From: Phorcus lineatus
Lineage: Eukaryota > Mollusca > Gastropoda > Trochida > Trochidae
Direction: 5' to 3'
DNA length: 64,000 nt
Assembly: GCA_921293015.1 (NCBI GenBank)
Contig: OV121081.1
Location: forward strand, 72,805,022 to 72,869,021
The translations under genes and the position numbers were made by a program. The notes below the pieces were generated by a model that was given only the letters and a program-made list of their open reading frames with translations, searched no databases and was not told the DNA's origin. Below are positions 6,981 through 52,694 of the stretch, one piece after another. Numbering within the stretch: position 1 is the first letter of the stretch; the number at the start of each line of letters is the position of its first letter.

Positions 6981-7250
6981 CGTAGCACGTTCGGCTTCGG
7001 ATCACGAGGCTCGGCAACTTTGTCTGCAGTAGAGAATGTTCTACACGCAATCAGGTTTGGGTGCAATGCTACACTGAAATTCAGCGCAGTACCACCCATG
7101 GTTCGCTAGTTCCAGCCGATGCTCGCAGGTTTCACCGCCATGCATAGACACGATGGTGCTTCGGGCTTTCTCCCTGCAATAATACTAGCAGCCGCGATAT
7201 AAGTGAAATAATCTTGAAAGCGGCGTTAAACACCAACTCACCTCACCTCA
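6981..7250 (+). mobile_element. tRNA-derived SINE, head partly deleted
   Basis: This copy keeps 'GCACGTTCGGCTTCGGATCACGAGG' from the tRNA-like head but lacks the B-box stretch seen at 21.72 kb. The body ('CAGTAGAGAATGTTCTACACGC', 'GGTTCGCTAGTTCCAGCCGATGCTCGCAGG') and the tail 'CTTGAAAGCGGCGTTAAACACC' are well kept. The ending in 'GCGTTAAAC(C)C' plus a short A/C-rich run is typical, from general recall, of molluscan SINEs (the RUDI/V-SINE type is a candidate). No B box remains, so it is unlikely to be transcribed. Confidence 0.82.
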
Positions 7251-11729: not shown

Positions 11730-13400
11730 AGCTCATCAGGTCTGAAAGACCAGATGGGCTTATGGCATCGCATGGCGTCCGGCGTCCGTCCATCCGTCCA
11801 TCCGTAAACTTTTCACTTTTTCGACTTCTTCTCCAGAACCAATGACTCTAGAGAGGTGAAATTTTATGTGCATACTCCTTGGCAAATGGGGATTCTAAAT
11901 TGTAGATTTCGTGACCCCATGACCCCAAATGGGGTCACAAGGGTCAAAACCTTAAAAATCTATTTTAATCTTCTTCTCCAGTTCCAAAAGGTCCAGCGAG
12001 CTGAAAAGTTGTGTGTAGACTTCTTGGCCAATGGGGATTTTAAATTGTAGATTTTGTGACCCCATGACCCCAAATGGGGTTTAGAGGGGTCAAAACATGA
12101 AAAACCTATTTTCATCTTCTTCTCCAGTTCCAAAAAGGTCCAGAGAGCTGAATAGTTGTGTGTAGACTCCTTGGGCACTGGAGATTCTAAATTGTAGGTT
12201 TGGTGACCCCATGACCCCAAATGGGGTCACAGGGGTCAAAACCTGAAAAACCTATTTTCATCTTCTTCTCCATTTCCAAAAGGAAAAGGTGAAAAGGTGT
12301 GTGTAGACTCCTTGGCCAACGGGGATTCTAAATTGTAGGTTTGGTGACCCCGTGACCTCAAATGGGGTCACAGGGGTCAAAACCTAAAAAACCTAATTTC
12401 ATCTTTTTCCCTAGTTCCAAAAGGTCTAGAGAGCTGAAAAATTGTGTGAAGACTCCTTGGACACTGGGGATTCTAAATTGTAGGTTTGGTGACCACTTGA
12501 CCCCAAATTGGGTCACAGGGGTCAAAACCTTAAAATCCTACTTTCATCTTTTTCCCTAGTTCCAAAAGGTCTAGAGAGCTGAAAAATTGTGTGAAGACTC
12601 CTTGGACACTGGGGATTCTAAATTGTAGGTTCGGTGACCCCTTGACCCCAAATGGGCAATGGGCCTTTTTTATTTGATTGTGAATAACTTTTAAGAAATA
12701 CATTGTTGTTTTCTATTTCATCTTTTTCCCTAGTTCCAAAAGGTCTAGAGAGCTGAAAAATTGTGTGAAGACTCCTTGGACACTGGGGATTCTAAATTGT
12801 AGGTTTGGTGACCACTTGACCCCAAATGGGGTCACAGGGGTCAAAACCTTAAAATCCTACTTTCATCTTCTTTTTGTTAGCCCTTCAAACACTGTCTAAA
12901 GTCGCACAATAATAGACCATCCCTCAAGCTTGGTGTGAGTGAGTTTGGGTTTAACGTGTCAGCAATCTTTCAGCTATTTCACTAGGTCGACCAAGACTTT
13001 GATTGACGTTTCAGTTGCCTGACTCAAGTAAACACGTTTGTCACTTGATTTGATTTACTTATATCTGAATTTTCTTATCCAAGAGAGCATAATTTGAAAA
13101 AAAATATTATAGTTTTGCTGTAATTGAATTGTTAATGAACAAAACCTGCTAAGTGCCCTTTAGTCCGTAATTTATGTGGCTATTTACTTTTGTTTATTTT
13201 TTCTCTGGGGGTTATAAGATATAAATGCATTTATGGTTAGACAAAATTGGCCCGACACAAGGACGGACTAAATAATTTTACAGCCCGTCCTCAACCAAAG
13301 TTACCCGTCTCGGACGTTGGGACAGACTATCTTTCCTACACTGCCCATGACCCCATGGTCTAAACCCAAACACCTATTTCTATCAAAAGTCTGATGAGCT
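11730..13400 (+). repeat. Tandem-repeat-cored element, copy 3 (long, homogeneous core)
   Basis: The left end AGCTCATC (11730-11737) opens an imperfect hairpin: 'AGCTCATCAGGTCT' pairs with 'AGACCAGATGGGCT' across a 3-base loop. The head continues with 'GGCGTCCGGCGTCCGTCCATCC'. Seven core units of about 145 bp follow at 11830-12870 (markers 'TTCTAAATTGTAG' near 11893, 12038, 12186, 12327, 12470, 12615, 12792). The last three are the most alike. The right end has GATGAGCT at 13393-13400, the complement of the left end, next to a second small palindrome (AGAGCCCATGGCTCT, 13403-13417). The stretch 12880-13330 between core and right end looks like an insertion or unique filler. Open frames inside the core are by-products of the repeat. 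Confidence 0.78.

Positions 13401-19402: not shown

Positions 19403-19490
<88 letters not shown>
19403..19490 (+). repeat. (CT)44 microsatellite
   Basis: An uninterrupted CT dinucleotide run of 88 bases. Frames through it on both strands (poly Ser-Leu or Arg-Glu) are artefacts. Unlike the run at 50.8 kb it is not preceded by AATAAA, so a LINE tail is not shown here. Confidence 0.98.
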
Positions 19491-21667: not shown

Positions 21668-21960
21668 ACGGGGCGAGATAGCGCAGTGGTTAGCGCGTTC
21701 GGCTTCGGATCAAGAGGTCCGCGGTTGGAATCCCGCCAGGGGCTCGGACACTTATTATTGCAGTAGAGAACTGTTCTACACGCAGTCAGGTTTTGGTGCA
21801 ATGCAACACTGAATTTCAGTGCAGTACACCATGGTTCGCTTGTTCCAGCCGATGCTCGCAGGTTTCAGCTGAATGCATACAGACACTATGGTGTTGCGGG
21901 TTTTCTCCCTGCAATGATACTAGCAGCCGCATTATACCCCGTACTACCTCATCTCAACTA
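21668..21960 (+). mobile_element. tRNA-derived SINE, best-preserved head
   Basis: The head is tRNA-like: an A-box-like TAGCGCAGTGG at 21679-21689 and a B-box-like GGTTGGAATCC at 21723-21733, about 44 bp apart, as in a pol III internal promoter. The body follows ('GAACTGTTCTACACGCAGTCAGG', 'GGTTCGCTTGTTCCAGCCGATGCTCGCAGG', 'CTCCCTGCAATGATACTAGCAGCCGC'). The copy stops soon after, without the 'GGCGTTAAACC' tail seen at 7230. The B box has one change from the usual GGTTCGAATCC. It is not a functional tRNA gene. Confidence 0.88.
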
Positions 21961-26944: not shown

Positions 26945-27675
26945 TTGACAAAACTTTTGTAAAGGTAAAGATGGAGGCATCTTTATTAGGAAACATTGTA
27001 AAAATAGGAGTTCATGAGTCTGGCACCTTAATTGTTGGCAAATAAGAACAAAACAAGAGATAAAAAAAGCTAGGCGTAAAAAAAAAGATAATTACAATCG
27101 ATAATTTCTTAGAGACCCTATTTTAACATAAATCAAATAATTCTTTTTTTTATCAAAAACGTTATTGCTTCCGTTTAAATGACAAGTTGAAAGTGTACCT
27201 ACATATAAACCTATTGTTTACTATACACTTGAAACCGAGTCGAGTTTGTAGTCACAAAACAAAGACGAAGGTTGTTATTCGCTGTATGGCCAGCAATAGT
27301 TTATCACAAACTATGAATCTAATAAATAAACTCGGCTGTGCGCCAATACATGTATAATATATAATGTATAATAGATATGTACTTATTTTTTACATTTGAG
27401 AAATGCAATAATAGCACACATAAATAATACACGTGTCGTAATTTTCATATTAATAGCATAGCGTTAAATTATTACACATGAAAGGAATAAATCTATTCCA
27501 CATGAATAGATTACATATATATCCAATAAAAGATAATATGAGTGATCTGCATTAATAAAATACTTATTTACAATGCTGGGCGAAAATAGATAATGCAGAT
27601 TATTAAAAGACTTATAAAACAAAACATTATCAAAAACCTTGTTTCATTCATTCATCAATGCAATCATACATGATA

Positions 27676-27825
27676 ACACACATTGCATTTGAAATATACA
27701 TACATTCAACCGAATACACATTGCGTTTAAAATACACATACATTCAACCGAACACACATTGCATTTAAAATACACATACATTCAACCGAACACACATTGC
27801 GTTAAAATACACATACATTCAACAA
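27676..27825 (+). repeat. 38-bp tandem repeat, about four units
   Basis: The unit is approximately 'CACACATTGCATTTAAAATA' followed by 'CACATACATTCAACCGAA'. Four successive units differ by single bases and the last is truncated. No coding potential. Confidence 0.85.
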
Positions 27826-28444
27826 ACAACACATGACATTAAGTTTCACATTCTTACCTTCCATACAACACACATGTTTAACCTAACTTAGAGAGAGAGT
27901 TTAGTTTAAGTTTAATATTGTTTAAGTTAGAGATAATTGTGATAACACATAATGCTATGTGTTTGCAAAGAACATACATATAAAAACCAATAGTAGCCAA
28001 ACATACATGATATGAAATGCCAAACAACTGATCCAATATGAGAAATACAAATGCAACAGACTATATCTAAACCTAATATCTAGAAGACAGAAGCTGAAAA
28101 TCATGAAACAAGAGAAATAGAAGGGTCGCGCTTGGGGCAGGCTATAGTTTGATAGTGCACTGGTGATTAAGTGAGTGTGAAATGCTCATGCAAAAGCTGA
28201 AGTGAGATTGTTAGGTAAGCTAAGTGTGAAGTACTAGGTTAAAATATTTGCCTGACTGAATATTGTCTTCATTCATTCACATTTAAATTAAAACAACAAT
28301 AAAAAATACACAATATCTGATGCTGTTACACACTTATGACAAAATTCATATGTTTTATTATTTCATTAATATAGATGATAAGGTCAAAGTGTATGTTAGA
28401 TAAAGACAGCAATATTAGTTCCCATTTTTCCTGATGCATTGGTA

Positions 28445-29185: not shown

Positions 29186-30045
29186 TAGCCTTGAGACTAT
29201 ATAATTCAGATGTTGGTCTTAATATCTGCCTATACAATTGGACTTGGATTTGGGTCATTATCTAAATATTCTGGACATAAAAATATGACTCAATTGAAAA
29301 TAGAAAAAAAACGTTATTTACATATTACCAGGAAATATTTTCTTCCAACAATCAGAGATGAGCCCCTTCAGTATAATCCGAGGAAATCTACCGAAAAAAC
29401 CCTGTATATTCTCAAAGTCATCTACATTTTTACAAGTGATAAAATAACAAAAAAATAAAGAACATGTTTTAATGTTTTAAGTTGATTTTTTTGGAAAGAT
29501 GTTGTTCCTCTGCTACTGTTTACCGAGAGAATGACTTTGAATTGAATTCCCTCTATTAATTTGTCAATAAATCAAATTTAAATGAATCAAAAGAATAAAG
29601 ATAAACGATTATGAGAAACAAAAATAGGGAAAAGATTCTAGATTGAAATCAACATCACTAAAGAAATACAAATTAAAAAAGCATGTAACTTCAAGATTCA
29701 AACAATCAAAAAAGTATAAACAAACGCCGATGTAGTTCTCTTAAAATGTGTATGAAGGAGCAACTTTATGATGAATTATGTCTTTATGCATTTTGATATA
29801 ATGGTATATTTCACTGCCATTCATAACGTCAATGTTTCACGTGTTTACTTCCTCAAAATCATTCCTGCAGGGATACAAACTCATTTGCAAAGAAACGTCC
29901 CCAAGATATTTTGTTTGTCATTTTCTTTTTAATGACCGCGAACATAACTCAGTGTAACGGAACAGGTCGCCTGAACATTTAATTTGATAACATGACAACA
30001 TTTACATGATATGCACGTGCTTTGTGAAAAAAATGATTTATATTA

Positions 30046-30329
30046 ATGAAATTGATTAAATTTAGCAGCAAGGCGAAGGTGACCACACCCAAAGAAGACA
30101 GACATTTACGAATGCTTCAAATGACGAACGTCACCGTGACGACATCTTCTGCACACAGTCTGAACCATACAATCAGTGACAATGAAAGTGACCAGACGAC
30201 TTCATCAACTCGGCCCTCGACCATACGCAACAAATTTGATGTCGAAGACTGGCTTGGTCGAAAACCGTTCGTCAATGGCACTGATGAGAGCAGGTTCCAG
30301 CTCAAGAAGCCCGACGGCCGGATACGTGT
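30046..30329 (+). pseudogene. Tc1-like transposase remnant, N-terminal part
   Basis: This frame is less AT-rich than its flanks and resembles Tc1/mariner DNA transposase. Residues ~13-24 (V-T-T-P-K-E-D-R-H-L-R-M) match the linker that joins the two helix-turn-helix DNA-binding domains. S-T-I-R-N-K-F and L-G-R-K-P-F (residues ~59-76) match the end of the second HTH. T-D-E-S-R-F-Q-L and P-D-G-R-I-R-V (residues ~79-95) match the block around the second catalytic Asp. The stretch between R-K-P-F and T-D-E-S-R-F, which holds the first catalytic Asp, is missing, so there is an internal deletion. Protein similarity stops at 30329, where the foldback-like element starts, and resumes at 36594. The - strand frame at 30117-30359 is its shadow. 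Confidence 0.8.
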
Positions 30330-30410
30330 CGATGTTCCGTGCAATCTGGGAATGATCACAATCTGCAGATTGTTCGCTCACAATCTGCAGATTGTTCGAA
30401 CAATCTAGGA
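30330..30410 (+). repeat. Left terminal module with stacked palindromes
   Basis: It contains CAATCTGGGAATGATCACAATCTG (30342-30365, whose exact complement is at 36484-36507) and the 14-bp palindrome CAATCTGCAGATTG twice (30359-30372, 30381-30394). It also has an 18-bp palindrome, AGATTGTTCGAACAATCT, at 30389-30406. The shared heptamer AGATTGT is the same one that marks every 63-bp array unit. Confidence 0.85.
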
Positions 30411-30424
30411 ATTTTTTTCATTCC

Positions 30425-31310
30425 AAACTGAGGGAGTATAGGGGACGATTCCTAGATTGTGAAGGGCTCACAGCTCGCCTATATGTCAAACAGAGGGAGT
30501 ATAGGAATCGATTCTCAGATTGTGAAGGCTCTTAGCTCATCTTTATTTAAACTGAGAGGGTATAGGAGTCAATTCTCAGATTGTGAAGGGCTCAGATATC
30601 GTCATTTTGTGAAAGTGAGGGAGTATGGGGGCCGATTCATAGATTGTGAAGGGCTCACATCGCGTCTATATGTTAAACTGAAGGAGTATAGGGGTCTATT
30701 CTCAGATTGTGAAGGGCTCACAGCTCGGTTTTATGTCAAACAGAGGAAGTAAAGTGGCCGATTCCTAGATTGTGAAGGGCTCACAGCTCGCCTATATGTC
30801 AAACAGAGGGAGTATAGGAATCGATTCTCAGATTGTGAAGGCTCTTAGCTCATCTTTATTTAAACTGAGAGGGTATTGGAGTCAATTCTCAGATTGTGAA
30901 GGGCTCATATCTCGCCTATATGTCAAACTGAGGGAGTATAGAGGTCGATTCCTAGATTGTGAAGGGCTCACAGCTTGCCTATATGTCAAACAGAGGGAGT
31001 ATAGGAATCGATTCTCAGATTGTGAAGGCTCTTAGCTCATCTTTATTTAAACTGAGAGGGTATAGCAGTCGATTCTCAGATTGTGAAGGGCTCAGATATC
31101 GTCATTTTGTGAAAGTGAGGGAGTATGGGGGCCGATTCATAGATTGTGAAGGGCTCACATCGCGTCTCTATGTTAAACTGAAGGAGTATAGGGGTCTATT
31201 CTCAGATTGTGAAGGGCTCACAGCTCGGTTTTATGTCAAACAGAGGGAGTAAAGTGGCCGATTCCTTGATTGTGAAGGGCTCACAGCTCGCCTATATGTC
31301 AAATTTTGTT
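30425..31310 (+). repeat. Left-arm 63-bp tandem array, about 14 units
   Basis: The unit is roughly 'CTGAGGGAGTATAGGGGTCG', 'ATTCTCAGATTGTGAAGGGC', 'TCACAGCTCGCCTATATGTC' plus 'AAA'. AGATTGTGAAG recurs every 62-63 bases from about 30455 to 31269. There is a higher-order pattern: a run of five distinct units starting near 30470 is repeated near 30970, with a shorter copy near 30780. Because 63 = 3 x 21, long frames run through the array with a 21-residue period (D-C-E-G-L-T-A-R-L-Y-V-K-x-R-E-Y-R). They are cut where a unit is 62 bases long, so I do not treat them as genes. Confidence 0.92.
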
Positions 31311-31630
31311 AAACTTATCAAATAAAAAAGAAAAAAACTGTTACCTTTTTTCCTAGCAAAATCTGTTACTTTTTTTCCGTTACTTTTTTTCCTGTTACTT
31401 TTATGCCGATCACAGTCAAATTGACTGAGTAAATGGGGTCGATTGTCAGATTGTGAAGGGCTCATAGCTCGCGTTTATGTCAAACTGTCAGAGTATATGG
31501 GTAGTTTGCCTATAAGTCAAATTGACGGAGTATGGGGATCGATTCCCAGATTGTGAAGGGCTCATAGCTCGCCTTTATGTCAAACTGAGGGCGTATAGGG
31601 GTCGATTCTAGATTGTGAAGGGCATTGTGC
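31311..31630 (+). repeat. Left-arm spacer and degenerate array units
   Basis: The segment 31311-31420 breaks the array and carries four loose copies of 'CTGTTACTTTTTTTCC'. Three degenerate 63-bp-type units follow (AGATTGTGAAG near 31452, 31552 and 31614) with gaps between them. Confidence 0.75.
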
Positions 31631-32993
31631 TTGTCTTTGTGTGTTTTTTAGCTAGTAGAGAGTTCAATTCACATATTGTGAATATGTGGAGGTAGAAAAC
31701 TAAATGTGTATATCAATTCTGCGATTTTAGATTTTCATTAATCATAGTTTGCGGTAACCCGTATAACACTGTTTGGAGGGTGTTACTATTTATGTAGAAG
31801 CAAGAATTATTTGTTATATGTGTAAAAGGTTTGCATATGGAAATCAAAAAATAACAATTCACTATGAAAAGTAAACTTATTATCTGAAAAGTTAATTACA
31901 CTGAAATTTAATTCTTCATTCTCGCTTATTTGACTGAATTTAGGTTAATTGAGCATAATTACTATCTGTATCAACACAAAACACTAATTTCCTTTGGTAT
32001 GAATTACTTGCATAGACACTTAAACTTACAGAGTACAATGAAGGAAATAGTCTCGTGATGCTAAAAAAGTTTCAAACATCAAAGACAACAAACTCTGATT
32101 CTTATATTTATTGTTCATTATGGAAACTTGATAACTGTTATCTTTTTCCCTCATTTTCTTCCTGGATCGTGAGATTTTATACAAAAAAATGCATAAATCG
32201 GAAAGTTACTTAATCTTTTGAGTTTGTATGTGAACAGTTTTTAAATATATGAATTTATAAAATGTATAATACTCGAACAGTAAGCATTTTGTGTCGTGAA
32301 TAATTATGATGATAATTAGATGTCTAGCTGAGTCTGCTTATCAAAGCAACGTGTCACTGTGTCGCGTCTCTACTTAGACTTGCGCGTAAATTCGCGTACA
32401 ATCACATCAACTTCCTCTCTGTAATTTGATGTTTATCTATCGTACGATATCATGGGGCAAATATTTATGCAATAATGAATTGACTGGAGTAAAATGTTTA
32501 ATTGCTCTTCGGTCACACTATGGTCAACAATTTGACACATGTTTTTCTGTAACGTTTTTAATAGTTTCCGTTATATCGGTTTGTGAATTTTACAAAGAAA
32601 TGTTTTATTTGATTTATCTATTATCTGTTCGTGATTCAATATTTTATTTGGAGTGGAATATTTACTACGCTGCAAGAAGAGTCATATAATGGCATCGTCT
32701 CTACCCCGTGCTGCGACCATAGAGACGGGAGTGGCAAACAACTAATTTCTTCTGTGTGATTTAAACAGTATTTAATTTCCATGAAACATGTAATACACAA
32801 CATTCAGAATATATATATTCAAAAAGCAAACAGGCAGCAAATGCCTTTATAAATGCTTCTCCTGAAACAAACATGTAACGATTAAGATATCAAGTACATT
32901 GGTGAAAATATATATTTGCAATTATTCTTACTAAAATCAAATTCATATTAATCATTCTCTACCTTTGCATTTGGTACAGATTTAATTAAAGAG
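31631..32993. other. Centre of foldback-like element, no recognised gene
   Basis: AT-rich. An 87-codon frame (32426-32689, +) has hydrophobic stretches but no motif. If the element ever carried a transposase here, it is not recognisable by eye. The sequence just left of 32994 may include the 3' UTR of the LINE C-terminal fragment described next. Confidence 0.4.
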
Positions 32994-33284
32994 CTATAAG
33001 AATCGGTTGGTATCATTTATGAAATGATACACATATATTATTAAGGATTCGTTAGCAATTTGTGACAAGGCTTTGTCGCCGCTCAAGGTAGATTTTAATG
33101 TTATATCGTTTTTCAAAAAGTATTGATTTGATCGGAATCTATCATATAGTGGGCATTTAAAGAAGTAATGAAAAGGATCCTCCCGAATGTTTCCACAAGA
33201 ACAGGCGGGATTTACTAACAACAATAAGTGGACTTGCTTTGCGTGGTATATTTTCCATATAATGCTGCCATTTTCCATCTTCAT
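32994..33284 (-). pseudogene. LINE C-terminal fragment (- strand)
   Basis: A 96-residue frame carries the cysteine-rich C-terminal signature of LINE proteins: C-S-C-G-N-I-R-E-D-P-F-H-Y-F-F-K-C-P-L-Y (residues ~29-48), then R-F-R-S-N-Q-Y-F-L and a natural end at H-F-I-N-D-T-N-R-F-L. It lacks endonuclease, RT and thumb. It lies immediately left of the right-arm array and runs opposite to the LINE piece at 34084-35821, which lacks exactly this C-terminal part. The two could be separated halves of one element, but about a hundred residues between them are not found. Confidence 0.85.
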
Positions 33285-33339
33285 TTTCCATTTTCATCTG
33301 TGTAAACATGCTTCTATACCCCCCGTATATATGACGTAA

Positions 33340-34083
33340 AGACGACGTATGAGCCCTTCACAATCTGAGACTCTTATACCCTCTCAGTTTGATAAATAGC
33401 AAGCTATGAGTCCTTCCCAATCTGAGAATCGAGTCCTCTACCCTCTCAGTTTCATATATAGGCGAGCTATGAGCCATTCACAATCTCAGAATTGACTCCT
33501 ATACCCTCTCAGTTTAAATATAGATTAACTGTGAGCCCTTCACAATCTGGGAATCAACCCCTATACCCCCTCAGTTTGACATATAGGCGAGTTTTGAGCT
33601 CTTCACAATCTAACAATCGACCTCTATACTCCCTCAGTTTGACATAAAGACGGGCTATGAGCCCTTCACAATCTGAGAATCGATCCCTATACTCCGCCAG
33701 TTTGACATATAGGCGAGATGTGAGCCCTTCACAATCTGAGAATCGACTCATAGATACCCTCTCAGTTTCATATATAGGTGAGCTGTAAGCCCTTCACAAT
33801 CTGAGAATTGACCCCTATGCTGCCTCAGTTTGACATAAAGACGATTTATGAGCCCTTCACAATCTAAGGATCGACTCCTATATACCCTCTCAGTATATAT
33901 ATAGGTGAGCTGTAAGCCCTTCATAATCTGAGAATCTACCCCTATACTCCCTCAGTGTGACATATAGGCGGGCTATGAGCCCTTCACAATCTAGGAATCG
34001 GCCCTATACTCCCTCAGTTTGACATATAGGCGAGATGTGAGCTTTTCACAATCTGAGAATTGACCCCTATATTCTGTCAGTTT
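33340..34083 (-). repeat. Right-arm 63-bp array, inner part, about 12 units
   Basis: The same unit as the left arm, in reverse orientation ('GAGCCCTTCACAATCTGAGA', 'ATCGACCCCTATACTCCCTC', 'AGTTTGACATATAGGCGAGC'). Units drift by single-base changes and small indels. The - strand 65-codon frame (33554-33751) shows the same 21-residue period as the left-arm frames. Confidence 0.92.
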
Positions 34084-34139
34084 CTTTCCTTATTGACCTT
34101 ATATTTGTAAATGCTCGTGATATTGTTGATGAATCGGGT

Positions 34140-34724
34140 GTGTTAGATCCAATATGCAGTGATCATTGTCCAATATTCGTTCATTTAAACACTAAGCTAG
34201 AGAAACAAACCCATTTCAAGCGAACCGCATACAATTATAATAAAATAGACAAAGAAGTTATTCTTAATGAGTTATCTTCCGTGAATTGGGAATCAGTATT
34301 CCATTCAAAAACACAGGATGATATGGTTGATATTTTAACATTTACATTAAAATCTGTTTGTGATAAACATATTCCAAACAGATTGATAACAGTTAGACCA
34401 GATGATCCACCATGGCTTAATAACGATATGTGCCATCTTATTAGAAAACGAAATCGGCTACATAAGAAAGCCAAACGCAGAAATTTGTTTTCTGACTGGT
34501 CAAACTTTAAAACAATGAGAAACTCATCAGTTGGTAATAAAACTTGGTGGCGATTAATGAAGAACTACCTAGAGAAAGCGAAAAGTAAAAACACTATCTC
34601 ATCGATACTATATAAAAATATATTGTATAATGATAGCAGCGAAGTTGCGAATATATTTAATAATTATTTCATATCTCAAGCACAAGTTAGGGACCCATCC
34701 TGCCCCCACCATCTATTAGCTTAA
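34140..34724 (+). pseudogene. LINE: endonuclease end and linker
   Basis: About 190 codons cover the end of the endonuclease (D-P-I-C-S-D-H-C-P) and the linker, with P-P-W-L-N-N-D and L-I-R-K-R-N-R-L-H-K-K-A-K-R, typical of the endonuclease-RT connector in Jockey/CR1-like LINEs. The true frame extends upstream of the first possible start to about 34090, so the start is not biological. It shifts frame near 34685. The - strand frames at 34235-34474 and 34687-34941 are shadows. Confidence 0.85.
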
Positions 34725-35046
34725 AGACGCAACAATCGCTTTCATCACTTACCATCTCGCCTAAAGAAGTTTTAGACCTATTACTATCAGTTGATGCTAA
34801 TAAAGCAACCGGTCCTGACGGGATTGGTAATAGAATTATTAAAATATGTGCATATTGCTTAAATAAACCGCTTGCTTTTATTTTTAATACATCCCTCAGG
34901 GAGAAATCATTTCCACACCAGTGGAAATAATCCTCTATCATTCCTGTTCATAAAAAAGGTAGCACCAATGATTGTACCAACTATAGATCGATAGCACTTA
35001 CTAGTAATATAGCTAAAATATTTGAATATTTAGAGACAATAATCTC

Positions 35047-35463
35047 TTGTCGAACCTACAGTCTGGATTCATACCAGGTGATTCAACAGTAAATCAGCTT
35101 ACATATATATATAACTTTATATCTAAGAAAATTGATAAAGGTAAAGAAGTAAGAGCAGTCTTTTGCGATATTAGTAAAGCCTTTGACAAAGTATGGCACG
35201 AAGGACTGATTTCTAAGTTAAAATCTTACGGAATTCAGGATGATTTATTTTTATGGATCCAGAGTTATTTAAGAAATAGAAAAGAAAGTGTGGTAATGGA
35301 AGGTAAAAGCTCTCAAAAGAAAACAGTATTGGCCGGAGTACCCCAGGGATCAGTTCTTGGGCCGCTATTTTTCTTAATATATATAAATGACCTAGTTGAT
35401 GATATGGACTGTAATATCAGACACTTAGCAAGTATATTCACCACAAAACAGTGTCCAGTATAG
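35047..35463 (+). pseudogene. LINE: RT palm lacking the A-D-D box
   Basis: A 138-residue frame carries Q-S-G-F-I-P-G-D-S-T, the first catalytic Asp block (F-C-D-I-S-K-A-F-D-K-V-W) and G-V-P-Q-G-S-V-L-G-P-L-F-F-L-I-Y-I-N-D-L. The upstream RT entry motif (N-K-A-T-G-P-D-G) is seen in another frame near 34801. After N-I-R-H-L-A the sequence jumps to unrelated residues and the F/Y-A-D-D motif is deleted, so no activity is possible. Confidence 0.88.
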
Positions 35464-35821
35464 TCCCAATATACAGTCTCCAAAAATTTTTCCTCAGAGC
35501 AGATTTGTAATTTTTTTTGGAAAGAAAATAAGTTTATAACCTTTCCAGTGGTTTGTAAGATTTTCGACAGAAAAATCGCACCAATCCTTCTTTATGGATC
35601 TGAGATTTGGGGTGTAAAATATAATGAGTCTATAGAAAAACCCATACCGCATATTTCAAACGTTTCTTAGGCATTGGTAAATATGTTTCTAATAAGGCTG
35701 TTTTAGGAGAAACAGGCCGCACAAATTTATTTGTTTCATCTCAACTTAGAGCTGTAAAGTACTGGATAAAGATTATTCGCATGAATTCTACGAGACTACC
35801 TTTACATTGTTATAATATGTT

Positions 35822-36400
35822 GAGTTGTGAGCCCTTCACAATCTAGGAATCGGCCCCTATACTCCCTCAGTTTGACATAAAGACGGGCTATGAGCCCTTC
35901 ACAATCTGAGGATCGATCCCTATACTCCGCCAGTTTGACATATAGGCGAGATGTGAGCCCTTCACAATCTGAGAATTGACCCCCATGCTGCCTCAGTTTA
36001 ACATAAAGCCGACCTGTGAGCCCTTCACAATCTGAGAATCGACTGCTATACCCTCTCAGTTTAAATAAAGCCGATCTGTGAGCCCTTCACAATTTGGGAA
36101 TCGGCCCCTATACCCCCTCAGTTTGACATAAAGACGAGCTATGAGCCCTTCACAATCTGAGAATCGATCCTAATACTCCGTCAGTTTGACATATAGGCGG
36201 AATGTGAGCCCTTCACAATCTGAGATTTGACTCCTATATACCCTCTCAGTTTAAATAAAGGTGAGCTATGAGCCCTTCACAATCTAGGAGTCAACCCTTA
36301 CATCCCCTGAGTTTGACATAAAGACGAGCTGAAAGTCCTTCACCCCCTCATTTTGAGAAAAAGACAAGCTGATTGCTCATCACAATCTAGGAATCGATCC
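35822..36400 (-). repeat. Right-arm 63-bp array, outer part, about 9 units
   Basis: Continuation of the reverse-oriented 63-bp array after the LINE fragment, ending near 36400 in degraded units ('CACAATCTAGGAATCGATCC'). Confidence 0.92.
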
Positions 36401-36481
36401 TTATACTTGCTAAATAGAAAAACCTTAATAAGCTAGATAATTCCCATTTTATAATGATGAAAATACTACTAAAAACAAATT

Positions 36482-36593
36482 CCCAGATTGTGATCATTCC
36501 CAGATTGTTAAGGTCGCACAATCTGCAGATTGTTTAAACAATCTAGGAATTCCTGCAGATTGTGATATACCCCAGATTGTTCGTAACATCTAC
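36482..36593 (-). repeat. Right terminal module with stacked palindromes
   Basis: It contains CAGATTGTGATCATTCCCAGATTG at 36484-36507 (exact complement of 30342-30365) and CAATCTGCAGATTG near 36519-36532. It also has the 18-bp palindrome AGATTGTTTAAACAATCT (36527-36544; the left counterpart has TTCGAA in the centre) and AGGAATTCCT (36545-36554). The outermost 'CTGCAGATTGTGATATACCCCAGATTG' (36553-36579) mirrors 30342-30368 with four changes, so it is the better partner for the left end; the exact match at 36484 is an inner copy. Confidence 0.85.
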
Positions 36594-36850
36594 ACGTTGT
36601 TTTATCGCAGAGGTTGAGTCTGATGAAGGCGGAGGTCTTATGGCCTAGGGAGAGATTTGTGGGGACAGGAAGACGGATCTGGTTCCCTTTAGGTTCAGCA
36701 ATCGGTCGGTGTTCCATCCCCCCATTGGAACACAAGAACGATGTTCCAACATGACAAAGCCACGCCCCACACTGGTGTCATTACAAGGAACTTTCTCAAC
36801 ACGAACAGCGTGCATGTTTTGAGCAGTTCCATTTGCCATTAATTGGATAT
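36594..36850 (+). pseudogene. Tc1-like transposase remnant, C-terminal part
   Basis: The transposase interrupted at 30329 resumes here. The codons T-L-F-Y-R-R-G follow on from D-G-R-I-R-V. Then, after a frameshift, E-V-E-S-D-E-G-G-G-L-M-A and R-K-T-D-L-V match the G-G-G-S-V-M-V-W-G block. Near 36746 F-Q-H-D-K-A-T-P-H-T with R-N-F-L-N-T matches the block of the third catalytic residue region (Q-x-D-N-A-x-P-H). Stops (for example TAG near 36642), a short deletion and decay after V-H-V-L show it is dead. The - strand frames 36508-36735 and 36645-36905 are shadows. Confidence 0.8.
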
Positions 36851-37984
36851 ATAACTTACCTCTTATATGCAATAATCTGGTATCTTTGTCATATAACATT
36901 TTCATGAGTGATTATCATGCGGCATGCAATTTACAGTTATATTTTTTTAAACAACTTCTTAAAAAACGTTAGGGTTAAGTCTTATTTGTTTAATAGGCAA
37001 CATTTCCATGTTTGTTTGAAATAAACGATGTTGTAAAAACAAATATGTTGAGTGAACTGTAAAAACAGCACGTTAAAGATATGAACGATGCAGGTTCCAT
37101 GAATTACAAGGCCACATTGAGCACACGACAACCATTTAGTCCCCTGCAAAACGTTTCCACTTAATAAGAAGTAAATTAAAGTATTAAATAAATACATGTA
37201 TCTTTTGATCTTGGTCTACGATGATATTGACATTAAATCGCTTACAAATTATAACATCATATAATTTTGTTTGAATTTTTAAATGCTATGTTAAGTTTTC
37301 AGATGATAACCAGATTTAAGAAAAAAGTTTAACTAAAGAACAGCTGCATATGTATGGAGATTGTTTCATTTCAGTATCAATGATTTCTTCCACTGAAACC
37401 ATGCTTGAGAATGCATTGACAGAAAACCTAGAATCATCCCATGACGTGTGAGTAGTAAGTTCTTAAGACAGTTATAATATCAGTGTATGCATTAATATCT
37501 AGAGTTTCTGTCAATATGATTGTAAATGGTGCGGTAGTTATCCATTATTTATTGTAATCTAAACATATGAAAGCCAAAATCAAACGGATGTGCAAACTGA
37601 AAATGTCTCTCCATGTAGAGCTGCAATTATTTTTCGATAATTCGTTTTTTTTTGTTTTAAATATGCACATTTCAAAGAGTTAGCCACGTTTTTCTTTACA
37701 CAACTGACAACTAGTTGATAAAATGATGAAAACAAAACACGGTAATTTGGTATAAGCTCAGCAAATAGCCGTTTTCATAACTAATTAACAATATATAGGT
37801 AATGATCTTAAAGGTCGAATGGCGTTTCATTAGTATCCTTAGATTGTTAGTTGTTTAGTAGTAAAAAACAGTTTCTAAATATAAACCATGTTTCGTTATA
37901 TCATACAGTACGTAGTTGTTTACAATAAGATTTTGAACAAACACCGATTTTGTCATTGAGGAAAAAAGACATTTTCTTGTATTG
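36851..37984. other. No gene seen; segmental repeat sequence
   Basis: 'CTGGTATCTTTGTCATATAACATTTTCATGAGTGATTATCATGCGGCATGC'-type sequence (36868-36925) matches 57950-58002 in the right-hand copy, so the segmental repeat resumes just right of the Tc1 remnant. No coding signal; the - strand 71-codon frame (36982-37197) is unsupported. Confidence 0.5.
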
Positions 37985-47978: not shown

Positions 47979-48264
47979 CTCAATATCATTATTTTAGCAG
48001 AAACACATCGTTCATGATCACTGATGAAAAGTAATATATAAAATATCAAATGGCCGGTATCAGGCAATACGATACTGCATCCATAAAATGGTTCTCTAAT
48101 TTTCTAGTAAAAAGTTATGTATGGTTAGAATCATAAACTTGTCAGATTAAAAAAACCCGTATTGTATCTAGTGGAAGAGTGTTGTTGCAATACCTAAAGA
48201 AGTAAATCATTGTTCACTTCGCTTTTTCGCATTAATAAAGATCACCCTTGTCAAAATTAATCTG
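47979..48264 (+). repeat. Left copy of a 286-bp direct repeat flanking a LINE
   Basis: Near-identical to 50869-51149. The differences I can see are two substitutions next to an A run near 48157 and one 5-base indel near 48225. The LINE starts at the next base. It behaves as an exceptionally long target-site duplication. Confidence 0.9.
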
Positions 48265-48709
48265 CTAAACTTCTAGTTCAGATCATACAAATATCTGGAG
48301 AACATTTTCGAAAAAATTGTAATCATTCAGACATCAATGAACAACCAAAGTGGTTTGACAAAGAATGTTCCCTGTTAAAAAAGTGAAATATGCAAAATTG
48401 TAAATTCTCAGATTAAATAATTGTAAGGAAAACCTTGACGCATTTCTCTCTAGCAAGGGAAGATTTAGAAAGATATGTAAAGACAAAAAAGCAGCTTATG
48501 AAACAGATGTAACTAACCATGTAAATCTGAATTTCAGTGATTGCAAATCTTTTTGGCAATCGGTAAAAACACTCCTAAGAGTAAAACATAAAGTTAATAA
48601 CATCACACCCGAAGTTTGGTATCAGTATTTCAAAGATCTGTTAAATCCTGAAACTGAATGTAGTGAATTTGATGACAATATAGCATATTTTATTAAAGAA
48701 CATGACCAT

Positions 48710-49387
48710 ATGAATTGTGAAGACTGTAACAATTCTAACATGCTATCTGAAGATATTACTGAAAATGAGATTGTTAATGCCATTGGTTCCCTAAAGCGAA
48801 ATAAGGCGCCTGGTATTGATGGAATCCCGTCAGAATTTTATAAAAACTCTCCACAGCTCATAACCTACATTCAATTACTTTTTAATTCAATATTAGAAAG
48901 TGGAGTTTTTCCTGATTCTTGGAATGTAGGGATGATTCTGCCTTTATTTAAGAAGGGAAATTTAGCTGATCCAAATAATTATAGGGGCATTTCACTTTTA
49001 AATGTCCTTGGTAAAGTGTTTACATGTATCATAGAACGTAGACTGAGAACCTGGATTGAATTAAATGATATTCTTTCAGAAGCACAAGCCGGTTTTCGGC
49101 AAGACTATTCTACAATGGATAATATTTTTGTACTGCAGTCATTGGTACAAAAGTATGTAAGAAAACCTAAGCATCGCTTTTATGCAGCATTTATTGATTT
49201 TCGCAAGGCATTTGATTCTGTTGATAGAAGTAAACTGCTTTATCAGTTATTACAACATGGAATTCATGGTAAACAAATCATATTTTGGAAAGTATGTACA
49301 AGAATGTTTGTGCTTGTGTTAAAATCGGTAACTGTGTCACCGATATATTCAATACATCAAGCGGAGTTAGACAAGGTTGTATGTTAA
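48710..49387 (+). pseudogene. Young LINE: RT fingers and first palm block
   Basis: The frame is open upstream to about 48455 and includes W-Q-S-V-K-T-L-L and W-Y-Q-Y-F-K-D-L-L, so the ATG at 48710 is not a true start. It holds R-N-K-A-P-G-I-D-G-I-P-S-E-F (residues ~30-43), G-M-I-L-P-L-F-K-K-G, N-Y-R-G-I-S-L-L-N and E-A-Q-A-G-F-R-Q-D-Y-S-T. The catalytic block F-I-D-F-R-K-A-F-D-S-V-D is at residues ~163-174. RT homology leaves this frame near 49284 in a T run (TTTT), where a one-base change moves it to the next frame; residues after ~192 are out of frame. Confidence 0.92.
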
Positions 49388-50676
49388 GTCCTCTTTTATT
49401 CATATTTTTCATCAACCAGTTGGCTGTTGATTTACAAAATGACGACTCTAGAGGCATTTTTGTAAATGATGCAATCGAAGTCATAAAACTGCTACTCTTT
49501 GCAGATGATATAGTATTAGTTGCAGATTCCGTTGCTGATTTACAAAGGAAGTTGATCGTTTTAGAAAAATTCTGCAATAAATGGGGATTGGTTGTAAATA
49601 TGGAAAAATCAAACATAATTGTTTTTCGTAATGGTGGAAAACTCAAGAAGGTAGAAAAGTGGTACTATAAAGGCATTGAACTGAAAACAGTTTCTTATTA
49701 CAAATATTTAGGAGTTATATTTTCATCATGACTATGTTGGTCTACAGCCTGTGAAACCCTTGCTAACCAAGCCTCTAAAGCATGTTTTCCTATTTACCGG
49801 TTGATGAAATGTTACCCAAATCTTTCAATGAATGTTATTTTGTCTATATTTGATACAAAGATTTCTCCAATTGCTTGTTATGGTAGCGAAATATGGGGGT
49901 TTAAGTTTCGAGAAAGTGTGGAAAAAGTCCAGAGTAATTTCTTCAAAACCTATCTGGGTATAAGTAAAAGATCTTCATCAAAAGCGGTTCTGGGTGAAAT
50001 GGGGCGCTACCATCTCTCTATACGTTATTTTTGTCGATGTATAAGATACTGGTGTAGGTTGATTCATATGGACTCGTCACGAAATACCCACGCCAGTTAT
50101 AACATGCTTAAAGCACAGGATGAAGCAGGCAGTGTAAACTGGGCTTCGCATGTTAGATTGTTACTATTTCAGACTGGTTATTCATATGCCTGGATGTTTC
50201 AGGAATGTGGAAATGTATCTCAATTCATGAATTTGTTCAAACAAACTTGCATAGATTTAGACATCCAATCTTGTTATGGGCAAATAGAATCATCAACATT
50301 TCTTAAAACATATTCATCCTTTAAAACTATATTTGGACAAGAAAAGTATCTAAGTTTTGATATTAATAAGGATTTGAAAAATGTACTTGTGAAGTTTCGA
50401 TGCATGTCACACAATTTGAGAATTCAGAAAATGCGTTTGAACAAATACACTTCTTATTCTGAATTATTATGTGAACGTTGTAACTTAAGAACTGTCGAAG
50501 ATGAATTTCATTTTGTTCTTGTTTGTCCTTTCTTTCGGGATAGTAGAACGAAACTCACACCAAATCGATTTTGTCAGTTTCCAACGCAGCAAAAGTTTGT
50601 TGAACTTTTGTCTTGCAAAAATGAAAATGTACTTAAAGGTTTTGCTATATACTTAAAAAGAAATTTGTATGTATGA
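49285..50676 (+). pseudogene. Young LINE: RT palm to C-terminus, one in-frame TGA
   Basis: A single frame runs from 49285 to 50676, interrupted only by TGA at 49729-49731. It begins with codons L-E-S-M-Y-K-N-V, then G-V-R-Q-G-C-M-L-S-P-L-L-F, the catalytic L-F-A-D-D-I-V-L-V (from 49498) and K-S-N-I-I-V-F-R-N-G-G. After the TGA come thumb motifs (C-Y-G-S-E-I-W-G, G-I-S-K-R-S-S-S). The C-terminal cluster is C-E-R-C-N-L-R-T-V-E-D-E-F-H-F-V-L-V-C-P-F-F. It ends L-K-R-N-L-Y-V-stop. Two lesions in this frame pair (frameshift and TGA) keep it from making a full RT. The - strand frame at 49278-49646 is a shadow. Confidence 0.92.

Positions 50677-50779: not shown

Positions 50780-50870
<91 letters not shown>
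50777..50870 (+). terminator. Young LINE polyadenylation signal and (CT)43 tail
   Basis: AATAAA at 50777-50782, then AT and a perfect CT run (50785-50870). A dinucleotide tail replaces poly(A). The flanking direct repeat begins with CT (50869-50870 are shared), so tail and target have two bases in common. Confidence 0.9.
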
Positions 50871-50874
<4 letters not shown>

Positions 50875-51149
50875 ATCATTATTTTAGCAGAAACACATCG
50901 TTCATGATCACTGATGAAAAGTAATATATAAAATATCAAATGGCCGGTATCAGGCAATACGATACTGCATCCATAAAATGGTTCTCTAATTTTCTAGTAA
51001 AAAGTTATGTATGGTTAGAATCATAAACTTGTCAGATTAAAAAAAACTGTATTGTATCTAGTGGAAGAGTGTTGTTGCAATACCTAAAGAAGTAAATCAT
51101 TGTTCACTTCGTCGCATTAATAAAGATCACCCTTGTCAAAATTAATCTG
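50869..51149 (+). repeat. Right copy of the direct repeat flanking the LINE
   Basis: 281 bp, near-identical to 47979-48264, starting at the exact end of the (CT)n tail. The - strand frame 50733-50957 over the CT run is an artefact. Confidence 0.9.
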
Positions 51150-52376
51150 TCAAAATTAATTTGGACATTTTTGACATTGTAATCATGACAACTTCTTTTC
51201 TCATTGCCAATTGTGAATTTTAATAGATAATTTTCTCGTTTTAAATCTCTGTCACAAAAGAAGGGTGATTTGGCAGTTGTAATTAGATTTGAAAATCAAG
51301 TGGAATTTGTGTTAACCTAAATTGCTAATTATTATTCATAAAGTCAGTATTATCTTGTCATTTGCTTTGAAAATTTGTTAAGTCGTCTGATGCTTTTCTG
51401 CACGTTCACTCTCTCAAATCATATATATCCGTCAATTGTCCACGTACCTTGGACTTTCGGCATGTATCTACCTTCGAATTAAAATGGTAATATGAAACAG
51501 ATGCACGATGTAGAAACATTTGATCAACAGAAATTGGTTTTATGTTACTTTGTTGTCTACACATTACAGCATACTTTCAGATTACGTTTAGCTCTCTTAA
51601 TATGTAGCAGACAATGTTAAGGTTACAAAAATAGATCCAACAGCTCACAAGATCGAAACACAAGAACAAATAGAAGACAAGATATTATTAAGCTAGTTGT
51701 TATTTGGGGAAATAGTCTTCTGGAAATCCTGGTTGTAACTACAAATAAATTTTAATTCCAATTGCAAAAATAACAGGAACAATATGATCATTCATTTGCA
51801 CAGAATAACTTGGTTAAATCATTTATGTTTTTTTGAAACAATTTATCCATAAACTACAAAAAATGAATTTGTTAGAAATGATAAAGGAAATTAGTGGAAT
51901 AACTATTGACATTTATTCTTGCATTTTCATAATACTGTCTAACGAAATGAAGGCATAGGTTTAACAATTGAATTGAAAAGTTACAATGAGAAGAAAATAA
52001 TAACATGGTTGAATAAGCATATTGTTCCTTGGCAAAATATTTTGCAATCTGTAATATTTCAGAATCAAAGTCATGTTAACAACACTAATGGAGATTCACT
52101 TTCTAGACTACTCGTCGTTAGCATGGGATATGAATGTGTATGAGCTCTGTACATTGCAGAATGTTACTCAAGTAAACGTATAAGTATAAAACATGTAGTG
52201 GCTACATGTGTTACAATATGTCACTCATCATATATGCAAGGTGACTACACGTCTGCCGAAGAAAATCACTTAGTCACTAAATGTTAACGTTCTTAGGATG
52301 ATAAAAGATAATGTCAAACCATGCTTTGAAAACTTTTAGCTTACTTTTCATACTGTTATAGTTCTTTTAGGCATGG
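51150..52376. other. No gene seen; segmental repeat and block A copy 4
   Basis: AT-rich. 51540-52100 follows the order of 20690-23160 ('CTACACATTACAGCATACTTTCAG', 'GATCGAAACACAAGAAC', 'TTATTAAGCTAGTTGTT', 'GGCAAAATATTTTGCAAT'), and block A starts at 52235. Confidence 0.5.
52235..52376 (+). repeat. Segmental repeat block A, copy 4 (interrupted)
   Basis: 'GACTACACGTCTGCCGAAG', 'GTTCTTAGGATGATAAAAGATAATGTCAAACCATGCTTTG' and 'CATACTGTTATAGTTCTTTT' match copies 2 and 3. The sequence is then broken by a SINE and resumes at about 52697. Confidence 0.7.
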
Positions 52377-52694
52377 TGAGGTGAGGTACTTGGGGTTTAA
52401 AACCGTTTCAGGAGTATTTGACTTAAATAGCTGCTGCTAGTATTATTGCATGGAGAAAGCCTGCAACAGCAATGTGGCTATGCAATGCGATGAAACCTGC
52501 GAGCATCGGCTTGAACTAGCGAGATATGCCTGGTACTCCGCTGAAAGTTAGTGTAACATTGCACCTAAATCTTACTGCGTGTGGAACAGTTCTTTGTTTC
52601 AGACAAAATTGTCGAGCGTCTGGCATAAGTCGAATCACGGACCTCTTGATCCGAAGCAGAACGCGCTAACCACTTGGCTACCCGGCCCCCTACT
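52377..52694 (-). mobile_element. tRNA-derived SINE, full length (- strand)
   Basis: On the - strand it has the tRNA-like head ('GGGCCGGGTAGCCAAGTGGTTAGCGCG', complement of 52660-52690, with an A-box-like TAGCCAAGTGG), a decayed B box, the standard body, and the tail (complement of 'GGGGTTTAAAACCGTTTCAGGAGTATTT'), ending in a short 'CTCACCTCACC' run. Comparison with block A copies 2 and 3 shows it as an insertion between 52376 and 52697. The - strand 62-codon frame (52565-52753) is incidental. Confidence 0.88.

Follow-up and report, generated by a model that had tools for sequence, protein, structure and literature searches.

The closest described systems to the locus analyzed here are transposons with repeats in their ends. 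In Galileo, binding sites for the THAP domain of the transposase are found near the element end and in 2/4 repeats (PMC3688188), and the arms vary strongly in length and structure (PMC3573991). For Foldback and Phantom, a binding role of their tandem repeats had yet to be tested at that time, according to PMC3688188. The subrepeats of Tm1 are better conserved at the 5' ends (PMC3169594), and Rehavkus-1_TC carries a 164-bp repeat in its inverted termini (PMC10218199). The 6.26-kb element at positions 30330-36591 of our 64-kb window (the whole stretch of DNA that was analyzed) adds one more example to a known kind, the foldback with tandem-repeat arms. Among the matches listed for literature on foldback elements in molluscs and on foldback or Rehavkus elements generally (open-licence papers; Repbase is outside this scope), no title or abstract start describes it.

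TRF resolved three arrays of a 63-bp unit, at 30424-31303 (14.1 copies), 33348-34071 (11.6 copies) and 35822-36343 (8.3 copies), and nhmmer placed the units of the left array on the minus strand and those of the middle and right arrays on the plus strand. The original prediction of 63-bp tandem arrays in opposite orientation at both ends agrees with these strands, with the amendment that the arrays are three, not two, and are accompanied by degenerate units. By both programs the left arm (30420-31303, minus strand) consists of 14 units of ~63 bp and one partial unit; five nhmmer rows of degenerate inner units follow at 31415-31682 on the same strand. The right arm, defined likewise, has an inner part of 12 units (33351-34083, plus strand) and an outer part of 8 full and 2 partial units (35829-36410, plus strand). 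The element thus presents the long inverted termini built of short tandem subrepeats that are typical of foldbacks, and its arms pair with one another: cofolding of 30330-31303 with 35829-36600 (DNA parameters) gave -558.5, with 558 of 700 pairs formed between the arms, against -179.6 to -192.1 for three mononucleotide shuffles. Together with the terminal match described below, these observations confirm the foldback anatomy that had been predicted.

The middle and right arrays share their orientation as well as variants of the unit (33659 with 35892 at 0.98; 33788 with 35955 at 0.95), and the array resumes near the same unit phase, within an ambiguous edge, past ~1.7 kb of LINE debris that separates the two. 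The debris probably interrupts what was a single right-arm array. The common variants would also suit two foldbacks, nested or recombined into a composite, the first comprising the left arm, center and middle array and the second the right array and its terminal module, as would the LINE-like pieces that flank the middle array on opposite strands. The co-orientation of the two arrays and the near continuity of phase argue against such a composite, which we consider quite improbable; one split array is the simpler account.

The debris itself (34084-35822, plus strand; right edge uncertain within 35795-35828) is made up of a reverse-transcriptase (RT) region, filler and a post-RT tail. The RT region, from 34084 to ~35430, matches Pfam RVT_1 (4.3e-20) and R2 and LINE-1 chains in the PDB, with no PDB match for 34041-34724; its start resembles, by motif only, the end of a LINE endonuclease. 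The tail (~35535-35822) is 51% identical to LINE B over 92 positions; for the RT region the identity is 33-34% in two longer stretches and 48% in one of 25 amino acids. The tail may belong to another LINE family than the RT region, and the debris perhaps derives from two families. We did not retain an ordinary LINE insertion as the source, as there is no recognisable LINE 3' end and two families are seemingly joined; a decayed or doubly hit LINE insertion may account for the debris. In the center of the element (31683-33350) no protein family was recognized, with no significant Pfam match in the ORFs searched. One ORF there (32997-33293, minus strand) resembles the C-terminal portion of LINE B in a short, weak match (E 0.008 by blastp, database of 5 sequences).

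Outside the arrays lie two terminal modules, delimited by their alignment to each other. The left one (30330-30423, plus strand) contains a pair of ACAATCTGCAGATTGT palindromes as well as two CAATCTnnGAAT boxes; the right one, which also carries boxes and extends to the right element end, occupies 36411-36591 (minus strand). The inverted match between 30324-30435 and 36481-36597 scores 100, while 1000 mononucleotide shuffles had a mean of 24.5 and a maximum of 48, and so the longer imperfect terminal match of the original prediction is borne out. The exact 24-bp inverted match that it also named is present (30342-30365 with 36484-36507); by our placement of the ends it lies 12 bp from the left one and 84 bp from the right one, and the two ends of the element are asymmetric. 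This 24-bp match was ruled out as the element terminus, as it lies inside both modules at unequal distances from the ends. Helitron ends are not known to be mutual inverted repeats, whereas inverted terminal modules are present here in place of the ends without inverted termini expected of rolling-circle elements. A rolling-circle element of Helentron or pearl type with tandem repeats in its interior, of the sort reported in bivalves, is for this locus a very improbable explanation: tandem arrays are carried by such elements in an oyster genome (PMC7492417), but at this locus the arrays make up long inverted arms on either side, bounded by inverted modules.

The element is bordered by ATACGTGT (30322-30329, plus strand) and ACACGTTGT (36592-36600, plus strand), which differ by one substitution and one inserted T. 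They form an imperfect candidate for a target-site duplication of 8-9 bp, where 8-11 bp would be expected of Mutator, Rehavkus and Tm1 relatives and 7 bp of Galileo; 81 of 20,000 random pairs score equally well, and the candidate is weak since the boundaries were chosen after looking. Within the element, the ORFs searched in Pfam (45 amino acids or longer, with most arm ORFs set aside) contained no transposase family, and specifically neither a MULE-type transposase or PHD finger nor a P-type transposase with a THAP domain, an absence expected of a non-autonomous element, whose transposase would be supplied from elsewhere. With no transposase found and an imperfect target duplication, the superfamily is left open, as it rightly had been before.

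The flanks are likely the two parts of a decayed Tc1-like transposase gene, an identification made mainly with an ad hoc Tc1-like composite query (itself Pfam DDE_3, 5.4e-16). The left flank (30280-30329, plus strand) encodes TDESRFQLKKPDGRIRV, in an open frame that starts at 30037 and of which nothing upstream of 30280 matched at the homologous place; the right flank (36603-36821, plus strand) encodes VESDEGGGLMA..CGDRKTDLV at 36613-36684 and MFQHDKATPHTGVITRNFLNTNSVHVL at 36741-36821, in different frames. The composite gave three collinear matches, one on the left (11/17 identical; tblastn E 0.019, phmmer E 0.24) and two on the right (tblastn E 5e-7 for both pieces together), E-values that may flatter the match, as the query was composed with the flank translations already seen. 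Sleeping Beauty, a PDB-checked and less biased query, gave a weak result: its best ORF match falls in the right flank (phmmer E 0.032, tblastn 0.20), and it met the left flank only at a non-homologous place. C. elegans Tc1 matched the right flank only (E 0.96), and the flank pieces retrieved no transposase from Pfam or the PDB. The similarity stops at 30330, against 30329 in the original prediction, and resumes at 36613 by alignment, or at 36603 when Y-R-R is counted by eye, rather than at 36594.

The terminal modules and the array units are linked by the box CAATCTnnGAAT. All 32 of its matches in the window fall inside the element (0.35 expected by chance), and the terminal modules account for five (at 30342, 30401, 36479, 36496 and 36539). 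The least variable 16-column stretch of the 63-bp unit is the core GAGCCCTTCACAATCT. With the core centered in the alignment, the 39 rows spanning it show 20/624 mismatches and 3 gaps in the core, compared to 242/1612 and 10 gaps elsewhere in the unit, and the core is less mismatched in every array (1/224 vs 97/609, 2/48 vs 13/113, 9/192 vs 72/505 and 5/144 vs 56/373). The significance of this contrast is modest, as 431 of 20,000 column permutations equal it and the array units are not independent of one another. This recount replaces an earlier one (9/576 vs 232/1577; 37/43 rows; 0/20,000 permutations), withdrawn as biased because the core then lay at the border of the alignment, and a local alignment clips off mismatches and a one-base deletion there. 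One core base is missing from three units of the left arm, and core-to-core spacing is 63 bp in 18 of 26 neighboring pairs.

The modest significance of the core would favor a reading with no mobile element at all, that of a minisatellite that underwent inverted duplication and expanded through slippage and unequal exchange. Such a history is in keeping with a recent duplication inside the left arm, where 30424-30803 recurs at 30924-31303 (500-bp shift, 372/380 identical), and with the single copy seen: blastn of 29700-37200 against the 64-kb window found no second copy, and the 63-bp unit patterns had 0 matches in viral_contigs. We nevertheless regard a minisatellite as unlikely, as terminal modules at both outer ends carry the box of the array and the element edges fall within a Tc1-like reading frame. 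The best reading is still the one predicted originally, a mobile element, non-autonomous or decayed, nested in a Tc1-like gene, with mobility inferred from one copy and the nesting weakly backed by queries other than the composite. Overall, 30330-36591 is probably a non-autonomous, decayed DNA transposon of foldback type (class II, cut-and-paste) inserted in a Tc1-like transposase gene, its arms being tandem amplifications of the terminal-module box, for which binding of transposase at multiple sites would be the likeliest role.

In this reading, the box would already have been present in the terminal modules of a foldback element that inserted into the Tc1-like transposase gene, and its tandem amplification would have produced the arms, with each 63-bp unit presenting one copy. 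By analogy with Galileo, where binding has been shown, transposase would be bound at many sites, which would mark both ends and bring them together; the putative transposase-protected stretch of the unit is GAGCCCTTCACAATCTnnGAAT. The LINE debris would have been captured in the right arm during break repair. A more specific model can be offered tentatively, in which the arms would be ~40 transposase-binding sites at near-constant 63-bp spacing, and selection during mobile life would have left a 16+4-bp footprint. As 63 bp corresponds to six helix turns, all sites would lie on one face. If true, the element would offer evidence from nature on the reason for foldback arms, with many in-register sites replacing one strong end. 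It would bear on the purpose of the very long repetitive ends seen in some transposons, and the sequence itself offers an exact candidate site repeated ~40 times.

Like Rehavkus (MULE-related), which has a minisatellite near its inverted end and 9-bp target duplications, it has repeats at inverted ends; Rehavkus differs in encoding a transposase with a PHD finger, none being found here, and in its arthropod and annelid hosts (PMC6446971). Tetris, a foldback of Drosophila virilis, is also apparently non-autonomous with tandem repeats within its ends, but its repeats are ~220 bp, its target duplications 8-10 bp, and three structurally complete copies are known (PMC4079207). Galileo (P superfamily, Drosophila) is alike in arm structure, its inverted arms being likewise long and containing tandem repeats; it is unlike in its 7-bp target duplications and in having copies with transposase sequence, compared with the imperfect 8-9-bp candidate and no transposase found here. 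Tm1 (Mutator/foldback, root-knot nematodes) resembles the element in its composite ends, with terminal motifs and tandem subrepeats of variable number that are unequal between ends, and differs in its ~14-bp subrepeats, 1-9 per TIR, and mostly 9-bp target duplications (PMC3169594); in the present element the unit is 63 bp long, and the left arm has 14 units and some degenerate ones, the two right arrays 20.

By structure the element (30330-36591) is a foldback element. It is a genuine case of a known type, its arms being arrays of a 63-bp unit and each outer end carrying a terminal module. TRF places the unit at 30424-31303 (14.1 copies), 33348-34071 (11.6) and 35822-36343 (8.3), and also detects a longer period in each array (187, 125 and 188 bp, respectively). 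A profile search with the unit gave 43 rows: every left row, including degenerate units at 31415-31682, is on the minus strand and both right arrays are on the plus strand, which bears out the opposite orientation claimed in the original prediction. One further minus-strand row is the box, a motif common to array units and terminal modules, inside the right terminal module. The exact 24-bp inverted match that had been reported is present, and the longer imperfect terminal match holds as well, as the inverted-repeat alignment of the outer ends (30324-30435 versus 36481-36597) scores 100 against a mean of 24.5 and a maximum of 48 in 1000 shuffles. The left arm has expanded by duplication, with 372/380 positions identical at a 500-bp shift.

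The arms contain a 16-bp core that varies little among units. A count with the core at the alignment edge (9/576 mismatches in the first 16 columns versus 232/1577 in the rest, 0/20000 permutations; 37 of 43 rows, six short rows left out) was dropped, since local alignment cuts away mismatches at its margins and so biased the result. The recount placed the core mid-alignment and used 42 rows, 39 of them spanning the core and one of these a terminal box. Here the core shows 20/624 mismatches and 3 gaps, compared with 242/1612 and 10 gaps elsewhere; it is the least variable 16-column stretch, equalled by 431 of 20000 column permutations (about 2%), although the units are related by duplication and their counts thus are not independent samples. 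By array, mismatches in the core and elsewhere are 1/224 versus 97/609 (left, where three units also lack one core base), 2/48 versus 13/113 (degenerate left units), 9/192 versus 72/505 (middle) and 5/144 versus 56/373 (right). Conservation is high again at GAAT, two variable columns beyond the core. The window holds 32 matches to the box, CAATCTnnGAAT, against 0.35 expected; all 32 lie within the element, five of them in terminal modules. Allowing up to three mismatches, the core 16-mer is present 35 times within the element (25 of them exact) and once outside (20053). Its spacing is 63 bp, or six helical turns at 10.5 bp per turn, in 18 of 26 neighbouring same-strand pairs less than 90 bp apart, and 57-65 bp in the others; this count leaves out the three left-arm units with a one-base core deletion.

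The right arm is split by LINE debris from 34083 to 35829 (RVT_1, 4.3e-20), whose reverse transcriptase (RT) matched 11 PDB sequences, R2 and LINE-1 among them. The debris runs from an endonuclease-like end through the RT and filler to a post-RT tail; the first of these looks like an endonuclease end by its motif, for which Pfam and PDB searches gave no support. Over 92 positions the tail shares 51% identity with the tail of LINE B (48404-50676 in the window). For the RT region, identity to LINE B is 33-34% in stretches of 101 and 68 residues and 48% over 25. The RT is usually more conserved than other LINE parts, and since here it matches LINE B less than the tail does, two LINE families may be joined in the debris. 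In the profile search the final unit before the debris is broken at column 45, and after it the array restarts mid-unit at an ambiguous edge. The simplest reading is a single original right arm of about 1.5 kb (the left is 1.35 kb) that broke open and took up LINE DNA. At the element centre, a LINE C-terminal-like ORF (32997-33293, minus strand, weak match) lies beside the right arm, at its inner end, on the strand opposite to the debris.

After the ORFs of LINE B itself (48404-50676) comes a (TC)44 run (50784-50871). Two direct copies of a sequence of about 290 bp (47979-48272 and 50869-51157; 284 identities and 5 mismatches in local alignment) bracket LINE B and resemble a target-site duplication of unusual length. 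That run and a CT/TC run at 19403-19490 are both perfect and of equal length, 88 bp. The window (G+C 29-40% in 2-kb steps) is taken to be eukaryotic from its LINE-type reverse transcriptases and one tRNA-like match (21672-21738; Rfam tRNA, 30.1 bits, cut-off 29). The latter sits inside a recurring repeat, perhaps a tRNA-derived SINE, with related stretches at 7009-7250 and 52377-52674. Other repeats are a 145-bp tandem unit (11867-12656, 5.5 copies), a separate stretch nearby (12713-12873) with a 98.7% match to part of that array, and a minisatellite of 38-bp units (27675-27842, about four copies).

The flanks read TDESRFQLKKPDGRIRV on the left and, in differing frames on the right, VESDEGGGLMA..CGDRKTDLV and then MFQHDKATPHTGVITRNFLNTNSVHVL. 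A Tc1-like composite query, composed after these translations were known and itself Pfam DDE_3 (5.4e-16), matches 30280-30330 with its residues 3-19 (tblastn, E 0.019), and 36613-36684 and 36741-36821 with residues 33-58 and 90-116 (jointly E 5e-7); reversed queries gave zero tblastn matches at E 1 or better. The three matches are collinear across both flanks and speak for the predicted nesting in a Tc1-like gene. Searches of the flank pieces in Pfam and PDB turned up no transposase. Sleeping Beauty (verified against PDB chains) reaches only E 0.032 by phmmer against window ORFs, where the right flank ranks best, and 0.20 by tblastn. The left flank is its top tblastn match (0.13) but in a non-homologous place, and was not counted; C. 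elegans Tc1 gave E 0.96 on the right and no match on the left. On these comparisons nesting is likely, and the insertion point would then fall between R-V and Y-R-R. A candidate, imperfect target duplication is ATACGTGT (30322-30329) and ACACGTTGT (36592-36600), equalled by 81 of 20000 random pairs. Because the target is near-palindromic, its letters also extend the inverted match; either end of the element is placed only to within several bases.

Filing under Mutator, Rehavkus, P/Galileo or another superfamily was set aside, as a transposase and a clean multi-copy target duplication are absent or weak. With a single copy seen, mobility is putative. The element ORFs searched yielded no recognisable transposase, so transposition would have depended on a relative. 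That arms and ends have the box in common, and that the box and its neighbours vary least, would most likely reflect transposase binding, as in Galileo. In PMC3688188 Galileo has THAP-domain sites near its end and in two of its tandem repeats, and the repeats of Foldback and Phantom are named there as still untested. A host factor, sequence bias or shared descent could instead account for the less variable core. An internal box common to ends and arms makes the question of long repetitive ends testable.
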